Below, in pieces: positions 33,615 to 37,374 of a stretch of 64,000 nt of DNA (its first letter is position 1; each line of letters starts with the position of its first letter). The position numbers and the translations under genes are program-made. This DNA comes from Pseudomonadales bacterium (GTDB lineage Bacteria > Pseudomonadota > Gammaproteobacteria > Pseudomonadales > Azotimanducaceae). Under the pieces are notes generated by a model that worked only from the letters and a program-made list of their open reading frames with translations, did no database searches and was not told the DNA's origin. The stretch spans positions 496,001-560,000 of the forward strand of contig JANQPF010000005.1 in NCBI GenBank assembly GCA_028285415.1, read 5' to 3'.

Positions 33615-33792
33615 GACGCACCTCTTGCCACATCCAGGGAAGAGGCACAGTAGCGGGAAACGTCTGCGTGATCTAGCGGCGCTGTCGGACACGCAGGAGC
33701 GCTACAGGCGCACGCCAATCCTGCCGGTTGCCCCCTGCCGGTCACGTCACCGCAGACTACGCTTTGGAATCGTTTCTGATCTGGAGAACCGC

Positions 33793-33993
33793 ATGTCCGA
33801 AAGCTCGATAGAAAAGACCCCGATTGCGCTGCTGACGCTCGATTCGGAAAGCCTCACCGCGGTAGCCGGTGGCAGCGGGACCGAGCAGGTGGAACTCAAT
33901 CCACCGAGTTCGTCCGATGCCTGGGCGCCGCCCAACCTGGCTGAGGTCAGCGGTCCACCCAATCGCCTCGACTGGGCGACGTACGTCTATTGA
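33793..33993 (+). CDS. small peptide with double-glycine-type leader, possible RiPP or bacteriocin precursor
   Basis: A 66-residue peptide with GGAG 6 bases upstream of its ATG. Residues 14-28 (LLTLDSESLTAVAGG) match the double-glycine leader pattern L-x4-L-x2-V-x-G-G that C39-peptidase exporters cleave. The predicted core is about 38 residues, acidic, rich in Ser, Pro and Asn, has no Cys, and ends DWATYVY. It ends 6 bases before the convergent selenoprotein gene. No modification enzyme or peptidase-containing transporter is seen in the window, so the role is inferred from the leader only. Confidence 0.6.
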   Translation: MSESSIEKTPIALLTLDSESLTAVAGGSGTEQVELNPPSSSDAWAPPNLAEVSGPPNRLDWATYVY

Positions 33994-33999
33994 CGATCC

Positions 34000-35073
34000 T
34001 CACGCCGACTCATCGTAGCGCGCCGATTTCGCGGCGTAGGCGAAATCGTCTATGCCAGTCTCGGCGCGCATGCTGACGGTCGTCGCCGCGGTGTTGTCGT
34101 CGAGTGGTACCCCCGTTGCGTCTGCAACGCGGGTAATGCCGTTGAACGCCGCCGCGACGACCAGCGCATCCACGGCGCAGCGTTCGCCCATGGCGGCCTC
34201 GGCACGCCGTCTGATTGGGCCCAGGTTGAGCCAGTCACCGCGTATTGTCGCTTCGGTCAACGCCCGCAAGTGCTCACCGTGGGCGACGCCCGGATCGGTG
34301 TGTGCGTCGGTGACGCTCTGCAGGTCGTAATCTTTCTGATCGAGCTGGCTGCTCGCACGAAGCAGCATCGTGTGTGAGGTGGTTCAGTAAAAACACTCGT
34401 TGATTGCCGATACCCGGGATGCCACAAACTCCGCCTGAGCCTGGCTGATCGACAGCGGGATGTCTTTCAAGGCGTAGTGCGGCCGGAACGTGCCGAAAAA
34501 TAGCGCCGTTGCGCTCGGCACGAGACCCAGGCTTCTGGCAATGTTGGGCACCGTGGGAAGTCCGGTGTCCGCCATGTCCTGGGAGGCATCCAGCATGGGC
34601 ACCCAGCCGCCGGCGTCGACGGCGTCCTGATTGTAGTGACGCCCCGGCCTGCCGGGCTCAGGGGGTGCCATGGCCGGCACGCCAAGGCCCAGCGCGTTGT
34701 GTAACGTATCGACGATGACGCTGCTCGCGACCACGCTGACAATTTCGACGTATTCCTGCGCGGACAGGTACCGGCGTACCTGATCGAACCATGCGCGGGT
34801 CAAGCGCCCCGGGTCGGTGCGAACGCGATGCACAACGTCGACGATGACCTCATCGAGTTCCGTGCTGTCCTCGTGCTTACCGGCGAGCGCATTCGGGCTC
34901 AGTGCTGCCTTGCTCTGCTCGCAATGATGACAGGTGAGTGCCTCGCGGGCGGCGCGCACCATCCTCTGGCGTTGATCGCCTGTAAAAAAGTCTCCGGGCT
35001 GCGCGATGAGCTGCCAGGTCTCGGCGTGCGCTGATGTGAGGCGGTCTGACAGGGGTAGCGTGGCGGGATACAT
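34000..35073 (-). CDS. AhpD-like selenoprotein with C-x-x-Sec active site (in-frame TGA at 34384-34386)
   Basis: Predicted thiol/selenol peroxidase-type redox protein, 357 residues if the TGA at codon 230 is read as selenocysteine. The redox centre is E226-C227-F-Y-U230-T-T-S-H234, matching the alkylhydroperoxidase AhpD/carboxymuconolactone decarboxylase motif C-x2-C-x3-H with Sec for the second Cys. The frame stays open for 123 codons after the TGA with similar composition; the next ATG (codon 236) has no ribosome site. A second C48-H-H-C51 pair lies near the N-terminus. ATG at 35073 follows GAGGAGA. A bSECIS-like hairpin follows the TGA. AhpD-like CxxU selenoproteins have been predicted in surveys of marine bacteria. 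The alternative is a nonsense mutation. Confidence 0.85.
34348..34386 (-). promoter_or_regulatory. UGA codon with bacterial SECIS-like hairpin
   Basis: Read on the minus strand, the UGA is followed after 17 nt by GCUGCUU, loop CGUGC, GAGCAGC: seven pairs (the last a U-G) with G at the second loop position. The apical loop starts about 25 nt after the UGA. Bacterial SECIS elements are described as a hairpin inside the coding region with a G among the first two loop bases, 16-37 nt from the UGA; this fits. Confidence 0.65.
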
Positions 35074-35104
35074 GGGTTCTCCTCGATAGCGCTCGCGTGA
35101 GTGT

Positions 35105-35135
35105 ACGGTCCGGCGTAGAGAGCGTCTACGGCCGT
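35105..35135. repeat. hairpin in the selenoprotein/metY divergent region
   Basis: CGTAGA and TCTACG pair perfectly around GAGCG, extended by ACGG and CCGT across an internal loop. It lies 32 bases upstream of the selenoprotein start and 120 bases upstream of metY. No known methionine riboswitch architecture is recognised. Confidence 0.4.
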
Positions 35136-35169
35136 GCTTGATTCCAACCGCCAAACCCGCCACCCTCTT

Positions 35170-35254: not shown

Positions 35255-36580
35255 GTGAGCGACGAAGCACACAAGGGTCCGAAACCTGTCGGATTCGACA
35301 CACTGACCTTGCATGCAGGGCAATCGCCGGATCCGACGACGGGCGCGCGGGCGACGCCGATTTATCAGAGCGCATCGTTTGTGTTCCCGGATTCTGATTT
35401 TGCAGCCGGGCTTTTCAATATCGAGCGGGCAGGGCACGTTTACTCCCGCCTCTCGAACCCGACCAACGCTGTGCTCGAAGAGCGCATGGCGGCGCTGGAT
35501 CACGGCGTTGGGGCAATTGTCACTGCAAGCGGCCAGGCAGCCATGCATCTTGCGGTGGTGACCCTCATGGGAGCGGGGGATCATATCGTAGCGTCTCGCT
35601 CGCTCTATGGTGGCACTCATAACCTGCTCGAATACACGCTCACGAGGTTCGGGATTACGACAACCTTCGTGGATCCGCGCGATCTGGATGCGTTTGCTGC
35701 CGCCATCCAGCCCAACACCAAGCTGGTGTTCGGCGAGGTGCTCGGCAACCCGGGGCTCGAAGTGCTCGATATCCCACGCCTCGCTGAACTCGCCCATGCG
35801 CACGGGCTGCCGCTGCTGGTGGATGCCACGTTTTCCACGCCGTATCTATGCCGACCGATTGAACTCGGCGCCGATCTCGTCATGCATTCGGCGACCAAGT
35901 TTCTCAGCGGCCACGGCGTGGTCATCGGCGGCGTGCTGGTGGACGGCGGCACGTTCGACTGGGAGGCGAGCGGCAGATTTGCGACGCTGACCGAGCCTTA
36001 TGCGGGATTCCACAATCTCGTCTTTGCCGAAGAGTTTGGTCCCCAGGCGTTCATCACCCGGGCACGCAAAGAAGGTATTCGTGATTTCGGCGCCTGCATG
36101 GCGCCAATGACGGCGTTTCAGATCCTCCAGGGGCTCGAGACGCTGCCGCTGCGCATGGAGAAGCACGTTGCCAACACCGAGAAGGTGATCGAGTTTCTGG
36201 CTGGACAGCCGCAGGTCGAAGCCCTCGTCTATCCGGGTCTCGAATCTCACCCCGATCACGAGCTTGCGCAGACGCTGCTGCCCAGGGGAGCGGGCGCGGT
36301 GTTCACCTTCACGGTCAGCGGTGGTCGCGAGGGCGGACGCGTGCTGATAGAGAACCTGGAGATCTTTTCCCACCTGGCCAACATTGGTGACGCCAAGTCA
36401 TTGATCATCCATCCTGCGAGCACAACCCACCATCGGATGGATACAGCCAGCCTCGAAGCGGCGGGCATCTCCGCGGGAATGGTGCGAGTGTCGGTTGGTC
36501 TGGAAGATCCCGACGATCTGATTGCCGATCTGCGCGCCGCGCTGAAGGTTGTGGCAAAAACGGTGGTAACCGGTACATGA
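35255..36580 (+). CDS. metY: O-acetylhomoserine sulfhydrylase-type PLP enzyme
   Basis: A 441-residue PLP enzyme of the Cys/Met metabolism family, forming homocysteine from O-acetylhomoserine and sulfide. FDTLTLHAGQSPDP, TPIYQSASFVF, YSRLSNPTNAVLEERMA and the PLP lysine K215 in MHSATKFLSGHG are all present. Length and the N-terminus fit MetY rather than the shorter MetB/MetC. It starts with GTG and overlaps the next gene by ATGA. Family members can also use methanethiol, or selenide in place of sulfide. Confidence 0.93.
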   Translation: MSDEAHKGPKPVGFDTLTLHAGQSPDPTTGARATPIYQSASFVFPDSDFAAGLFNIERAGHVYSRLSNPTNAVLEERMAALDHGVGAIVTASGQAAMHLAVVTLMGAGDHIVASRSLYGGTHNLLEYTLTRFGITTTFVDPRDLDAFAAAIQPNTKLVFGEVLGNPGLEVLDIPRLAELAHAHGLPLLVDATFSTPYLCRPIELGADLVMHSATKFLSGHGVVIGGVLVDGGTFDWEASGRFATLTEPYAGFHNLVFAEEFGPQAFITRARKEGIRDFGACMAPMTAFQILQGLETLPLRMEKHVANTEKVIEFLAGQPQVEALVYPGLESHPDHELAQTLLPRGAGAVFTFTVSGGREGGRVLIENLEIFSHLANIGDAKSLIIHPASTTHHRMDTASLEAAGISAGMVRVSVGLEDPDDLIADLRAALKVVAKTVVTGT

Positions 36581-37374
36581 GGACGGAGATTGACGGGCAC
36601 GCGGTGTTCTACGGTACCGGCAGTGGTCGTCCCGCCGCGGATGCCGAACCGATCGTCTTTGTGCATGGCGCCGGATTCGACCACAGCGTATGGGTCATGC
36701 CGGCGCGCTACTTCGCGCGCCACGGCTTCCAGGTCGTCGCGCCCGATTTACCGGCTCACGGGCGCTCGGCGGGCCCGCCGCTCACGAGCATTCCCGCCAT
36801 GGCGGACTGGATCGCTTCGCTCATCGATACGGTCTGTGACCGTCCAGCCGTGGTCATCGGTCACAGTATGGGATCGCTCGTGACGCTCGCGCTTGCCCAC
36901 GCGCACAGAGAACGAGTTGCCCGAATTGTCCTTCTCGGCACGTCGCTGCCGATGCCGGTTGGACCGCCGCTCTTGAAAGCAGCCGGGGACAACCATCACG
37001 CGGCTATTGAAATGGCCAATACCTGGAGCCACAGTGCCCGTGGAGCGCTCGGTTCCGCCCAGAATCCCGGGTTGTCGAATCTCGTCAGCGGGGAGCGATG
37101 GCTGGAACGGATGGCGGACGGTGTCTATCACGCCGACCTTGCCGCGTGTAACGCTTATGTCGATCAGACAGTCGTGGATGACGTGGAAGCCCTTGTCATC
37201 GCGGGCGCGGCTGACCGGATGACCCCGCTGCGTGCCGGACAGGCGGTTGCAAAGCTGCTGTCGCGGTCGACGACTGTTGTGCTCGAAGATTGCGGTCACT
37301 CGATGCTGTCGGAGCGGCCGAATGAAGTGCTCGATGCGCTGGCATCGTTTGTTATGAGTGGGAGTGGAGAATGA
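36577..37374 (+). CDS. alpha/beta hydrolase
   Basis: A 265-residue serine hydrolase. FVHGAGFDHSVWVM is the oxyanion region, LPAHGRS the following turn, GHSMGSLV the nucleophile elbow and EDCGHSMLSERP the catalytic His. It is translationally coupled to metY (ATGA) and to the NnrU gene (ATGA). The homoserine link is inference only; the substrate is unknown. Confidence 0.9.
   Translation: MRTEIDGHAVFYGTGSGRPAADAEPIVFVHGAGFDHSVWVMPARYFARHGFQVVAPDLPAHGRSAGPPLTSIPAMADWIASLIDTVCDRPAVVIGHSMGSLVTLALAHAHRERVARIVLLGTSLPMPVGPPLLKAAGDNHHAAIEMANTWSHSARGALGSAQNPGLSNLVSGERWLERMADGVYHADLAACNAYVDQTVVDDVEALVIAGAADRMTPLRAGQAVAKLLSRSTTVVLEDCGHSMLSERPNEVLDALASFVMSGSGE

Follow-up and report, generated by a model that had tools for sequence, protein, structure and literature searches.

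A probable NF041238 selenoprotein with two predicted AhpD-fold domains in a Pseudomonadales bacterium

We analysed a window of 64,000 nucleotides from a Pseudomonadales bacterium (assembly GCA_028285415.1, contig JANQPF010000005.1, positions 496,001 to 560,000). A gene on the minus strand of this window (Table 1) very probably encodes a selenoprotein of NCBIfam family NF041238. Codon 230, UGA, would be read as selenocysteine (Sec) by means of a selenocysteine insertion sequence (SECIS) hairpin and the SelA, SelB, SelC and SelD of the same genome. The product is predicted to be a pseudo-dimer of two AhpD-fold domains and is likely to reduce hydroperoxides or disulfides. The gene is not undiscovered; its family is already catalogued as 'alkylhydroperoxidase-related (seleno)protein'. 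A table in a 2026 review enters NF041238 under the name 'hypothetical protein 1, Sargasso Sea metagenome', with the motif CxxU (PMC13188914). The accessible text of the 2005 Sargasso Sea paper describes four 'hypothetical protein 1' sequences with CXXU, and names hypothetical protein 1 among the predicted SECIS elements (PMC1088965). In a literature search for the accession NF041238, the 2026 review was the sole paper found to contain it.

The initial annotation of this locus, made from the DNA letters alone, had described a minus-strand frame of 357 codons with a lone TGA at codon 230. Translation agrees. The internal TGA lies within the motif C227-F-Y-U230-T-T-S-H234, and a second TGA, codon 358, terminates the frame. 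By direct reading, GAGGAG is placed 5 bases ahead of the ATG at 35073. Without recoding, ordinary open reading frame (ORF) calling divides the locus into two ORFs (35163..34384 and 34368..34000), and no Shine-Dalgarno-like sequence was seen ahead of the downstream ATG at 34368. Both the split and the missing ribosome site had been correctly anticipated. The locus illustrates how inspection of raw sequence can bring a genuinely recoded gene to light.

The protein matches NF041238 with an E-value of 2.1e-118 and 395.6 bits (curated cut-off 175), covering model positions 3-356 of 357. The full-length match, the C-F-Y-U-T motif and the predicted Sec are common to the window protein and the family model AhpD_rel_CFYUT, and we found no difference that takes the protein out of the family. 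Residue 54 is R in 56 of 61 sequences but S in the window member (S54). Its genome, G000, holds three full-length NF041238 paralogs with one in-frame TGA each (C2:402024-403082, C26:314785-315846 and the window gene).

The in-frame TGA is retained by nearly all homologs. NF041238 matches above the cut-off occur in 30 of 58 genomes, G000 included. There are 47 such matches, three being the G000 copies, and 45 have the TGA (one of them also a TAA). Of the other two, one is a broken copy of which the match covers an N-terminal fragment, and one is a full-length copy without a stop (L092, G030:C41:9762-10808). The latter reads NECFYCSASH and is the only full-length Cys form seen; its genome also has Sec forms. 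TGA stands at C-F-Y-U in all 32 loci that were read out (31 plus the window gene, L033). A second set of relatives came from a GTDB collection, from which the best 80 of 265 related stretches were fetched. Here, C-x-x-U-x3-H is present in 79/80, though the displayed search patterns were written with Cys. Hence, the expectation that homologs would have Cys or U at position 230 was realised as U in nearly all and Cys in one. Cys forms may be commoner in more distant relatives outside the best 80. By their record titles, the GTDB relatives are for the most part Gammaproteobacteria and Pseudomonadales; Myxococcota, Deltaproteobacteria and Alphaproteobacteria occur among the rest. Two copies are irregular: L093 (G030:C346:19209-20268) is split into two pieces and L031 (G023:C95) has an extra internal TAA, possibly through decay or assembly errors.

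Four sets of sequences were used. A1 contains 25 of the 32 read-out sequences. A2 contains 61 of a pool of 78 (the window and 77 loci); 17 loci were omitted to shorten the list, and L156, L163 and L170 are outside the pool. A3 and A4 contain 47 and 25, respectively, of the A2 sequences. Constraint was measured with eight relatives, of 59-68% identity, that retain the frame and the TGA, which speaks against a chance frame. It is similar on either side of the TGA, with pN (nonsynonymous differences) of 0.22-0.31 upstream and 0.24-0.32 downstream and pS (synonymous differences) of 0.57-0.80. Of the dS values in this comparison, about half are saturated.

A SECIS-like hairpin had been noted after the TGA. 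It has the arrangement of bacterial selenoproteins, being just 3' of the UGA with a G in a small apical loop. The informative tests are those of position and of slid pairs, and both uphold the hairpin. For the former, 80 genes were used (79 loci and the window; L163 has three TGA codons in frame, was unscorable and was excluded). The loop of the best hairpin is 24-25 nt past the UGA in 76 of these genes, compared with 23.4% of synonymous shuffles. Mean hairpin energy is -9.65 kcal/mol, against -6.20 kcal/mol in shuffles, and 79 of the 80 genes have a G in the apical loop. For the latter, standard pairs fill 90.1% of cells at eight stem positions in 77 distinct sequences; the figure is 26-62% with one side slid. 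The stem overlaps conserved codons, so pairing is partly also a constraint on the protein.

The initial annotation had named selA, selB, selC and selD as genes to be sought, and all four are present in G000 above their cut-offs. The selA and selB genes are adjacent on contig C4, with the tRNA-Sec gene directly after them (C4:3571-3659), and selD is on contig C21. The family and selB tend to occur together: among the 33 genomes with a completeness of 95% or more, both are found in 12 and neither in 15; one has the family without selB, and five have selB without the family (p 0.0002, kinship ignored). A Sec-containing formate dehydrogenase was considered as the reason for this machinery and rejected: the 13 formate dehydrogenase alpha matches in G000 are all below the cut-off and none has an internal stop. 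Hence, the machinery is perhaps retained for proteins such as those of the NF041238 family. As a separate observation, the next feature downstream of tRNA-Sec is a phage-type integrase (PF22022, PF13356, PF00589; G000:C4; L098:2232-3488, minus strand). In other bacteria selC serves as an integration site, and the adjoining integrase suggests that it may do so here.

In the predicted structure, the protein is a covalent pseudo-dimer. Its C-terminal domain has the complete AhpD redox centre, E-x11-C-x-Y-C-x3-H, with Sec replacing the second Cys (E215, C227, Y229, U230, H234), and a predicted AhpD fold. The N-terminal domain keeps a C-x-x-C motif; the Tyr and His of the AhpD centre are missing. 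This extra C48-H-H-C51 pair had been remarked on from the outset. Most relatives keep it, and it proves to lie within the second predicted AhpD-fold domain. Members that keep CFYU and have lost one or both N-terminal cysteines are L025, L027, L029-L031, L134, L153 and L161. The Pfam carboxymuconolactone decarboxylase (CMD) model is matched by all 61 members of A2, the window protein among them, at E-values up to 10 (best 2.3e-8), and TIGR00778 is barely reached by the window protein (27.9 bits; cut-off 27.8).

The duplication is visible in the predicted structure only. At E 0.001, Foldseek by itself matched neither the whole model nor the N-half model. In its ranking for the whole model, single AhpD chains come first and 9lwf_Y, a chain of the sensor-bound GATOR2 complex, is at rank 7. 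Sestrin2 ranks first for the whole model only in a second-look alignment of Foldseek's own 381 chains, and no sestrin chain was among the matches listed in the structural search with the N-terminal half. The N-half profile found weak matches only among solved chains (Bmp8 at E 0.49), and a Pfam search of the N-half found nothing relevant.

Table 1. Features of the window discussed in the text.
Feature	Position	Strand	Basis
Selenoprotein coding sequence, 357 aa, UGA 230 as Sec; stop TGA 34002..34000	34000..35073	-	translation, NF041238 match, homologous loci
In-frame UGA, Sec230, second position of C-x-x-U	34384..34386	-	translation and homologs
Shine-Dalgarno-like GAGGAG, 5' of ATG 35073	35079..35084	-	direct reading
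SECIS hairpin GCUGCUUCGUGCGAGCAGC, 7-bp stem, apical loop CGUGC at 34359..34355	34348..34366	-	position, pairing and shuffle tests
N-terminal domain, predicted AhpD fold, residues ~1-132, with C48 (34932..34930) and C51 (34923..34921)	34678..35073	-	predicted structure and conservation
C-terminal AhpD-fold domain, residues ~153-336, with E215, C227, Y229, U230, H234	34066..34617	-	NF041238 match, model, alignment
O-acetylhomoserine aminocarboxypropyltransferase (MetY type), divergent neighbour	35255..36580	+	neighbour survey and family match
Alpha/beta hydrolase, downstream of and syntenic with the MetY gene	36577..37374	+	neighbour survey and family match
Convergent small ORF, 67 aa, AVAGG after its N-terminal third; probably unrelated	33790..33993	+	own genome only

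We propose the following mechanism. The SECIS hairpin and the SelA, SelB, SelC and SelD of the genome would cause UGA 230 to be read as Sec. Sec230, adjacent to His234 and with Cys227 as its partner, would attack an organic hydroperoxide or a disulfide. A selenenyl-sulfide would then form between Sec230 and Cys227, to be reduced again by a thiol system. C48 and C51 may be an electron-relay or resolving site. Lacking Tyr and His, the N-terminal pair would more probably serve in resolving, in electron entry or in the structure than as a second peroxidase. The analysis itself shows that the UGA and both centres are conserved, that the hairpin and the sel genes are present and, as a prediction, that the fold has two domains. 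We infer the reaction, the substrate, the reductant and the role of C48/C51. The locus had initially been described as a Sec-dependent thiol peroxidase of a poorly characterised long form. The Sec part of that description stands, given the homologs, the sel genes and the SECIS-type hairpin; 'thiol peroxidase' follows from the fold and the active-site residues, and is qualified to that extent.

Several observations count against this interpretation. The CMD model PF02627 alone gives the window protein 17 bits, below its cut-off of 23. The AhpD similarity of the N-half comes from a predicted model with a middling Z, and profile comparison of the N-terminal with the C-terminal half gave no match. 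The N-terminal C-x-x-C is absent from 5/32 and 3/78 CFYU-retaining sequences (the 32 read-out loci, and 78 loci without the C-terminal fragment L156 and L163; the sets partly overlap). Whole lineages are without the motif, which must be dispensable there. In the SECIS stem, two-sided changes affect 3 of 8 pairs, not above slid versions (0 to 4). Covariation is thus not shown, and it is the constant position and the pairing that support the SECIS. When the 76-nt segment is folded singly, its minimum-energy structure is not this hairpin (z -1.44). An initial test set 37 hairpins against 100 synonymous shuffles each; in just 11 cases was the hairpin equalled by at most 5 shuffles, energy alone being a weak discriminator. 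Eight of the 30 family-bearing genomes have no detected selB; five of these are at most 73% complete, and three are at least 90% complete but in 390-520 contigs. Finally, the hydroperoxide reaction of C227/U230 is proposed by analogy only.

Three other explanations were weighed. The protein could be a selenoprotein that acts as a thiol-disulfide reductase or adaptor, perhaps fed by glutathione, and not as a direct peroxidase. We regard this as quite possible. C-x-x-U is a dithiol-type centre, and AhpD itself is an adaptor for its partner. In one clade, a glutathione S-transferase (GST) gene precedes the family gene on the same strand at a distance of at most 2 kb (10 of the 81 loci surveyed), but it is not near the window gene. 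It is improbable that NF041238 serves sulfur-amino-acid metabolism together with the divergent MetY gene. Whereas a MetY-type gene is beside the family gene in 24/81 loci, genes of the same block are nearly as frequent (alpha/beta hydrolase 23/81, Hsp70-like 20/81); moreover, MetY is present in 12/40 stretches and is not beside the two other G000 paralogs (L067 and L074). A truncated enzyme, with the UGA as a true stop, a product of the first 229 codons and a remainder that is either decaying or a gene of its own, would agree with the split made by ORF calling but can be set aside, because the downstream half is similarly constrained, TGA recurs in 45/47 and 79/80 relatives, the stop would fall within the active site, the genome has the full Sec machinery and the hairpin is at a fixed place.

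The selenoprotein with two predicted AhpD-fold domains is worth following for its predicted Sestrin2-like arrangement, with two largely conserved redox centres, one containing Sec. It gives the family, on record since 2005 and presented so far in the accessible literature only as 'AhpD-related', a structural hypothesis that can be tested. In the accessible accounts, Sestrin2 is a duplicated AhpD-like protein. Its N-terminal domain keeps one Cys (Cys125) and its C-terminal site is lost, being replaced by an acidic DDYDY hinge. Human Sestrin2 is like the window protein in having two AhpD-fold domains in one chain (here in predicted models only), and the two share 8% identity. The active Cys125 of Sestrin2 is N-terminal, whereas in NF041238 the complete centre is C-terminal and has Sec. 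Where Sestrin2 has the DDYDY hinge, NF041238 keeps its CFYU centre intact, with a predicted helix on either side. No sestrin model was among the Pfam matches of the 61 members, and no sestrin chain was found by profile, with filters that drop weak matches. NF041238 is thus sestrin-like in predicted architecture but not a sestrin: it has no DDYDY hinge, and these searches revealed no similarity in sequence. GATOR2 and leucine binding are not expected in a bacterium. A literature search, with most subscription papers outside it, found no report linking NF041238 to sestrin architecture.

Fused AhpD proteins of bacteria (YciW; Corynebacterium, Comamonas, Rokubacteria) are called sestrin analogues in the accessible text of a 2024 review (PMC11429811). 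According to this review, those of Corynebacterium and Comamonas have two C-terminal cysteines and no N-terminal ones, and it is an open question whether sestrins arose from fused AhpD proteins. Compared by description only, all of these analogues resemble NF041238 in having two AhpD-like domains, and those of Corynebacterium and Comamonas also in the two C-terminal cysteines. Conversely, the N-terminal domain of the latter is said to be without cysteines, whereas most NF041238 members keep C-x-x-C there and have the C-terminal Sec. Single-domain AhpD-like peroxidases (YP_296737.1/2prr, 6k40, 2oyo) have a second Cys where NF041238 has Sec, and are without its second, predicted, fused AhpD-fold domain. 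The NF041238 proteins would be selenium-dependent bacterial counterparts of sestrins if these tandem-AhpD pseudo-dimers relayed electrons from C48-x-x-C51 to C227/Sec230, and would then offer a living model for the fused ancestor, one site of which was lost in sestrins. We consider this rather unlikely. To our knowledge, a two-site relay has been described neither for single-domain AhpD nor for sestrins. The family supplies abundant bacterial material for the question of sestrin origin.

Neighbouring genes help little as a clue to mechanism. An operon or regulatory link to the divergent MetY gene was considered and rejected, since general synteny explains the arrangement equally well; genes of the block are kept almost as often as MetY, which looks like general synteny of one clade. 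The small convergent ORF, presumably leader-like in its looks, was also rejected as a peptide substrate. It has no Pfam or NCBIfam family match and, at E 0.01, is found in G000 only among 58 genomes; a second G000 match has E 0.47. A scan of the flanks of 32 loci for similar small ORFs was uninformative because its filters missed the ORF of the window too. The GST-bearing loci (L145, L147-L151, L153, L155, L157 and L173) belong to a clade other than that with the MetY block. The one member tested scores highest with the NCBIfam model for GSH-dependent disulfide bond oxidoreductase, at 218.6 bits against a cut-off of 332.
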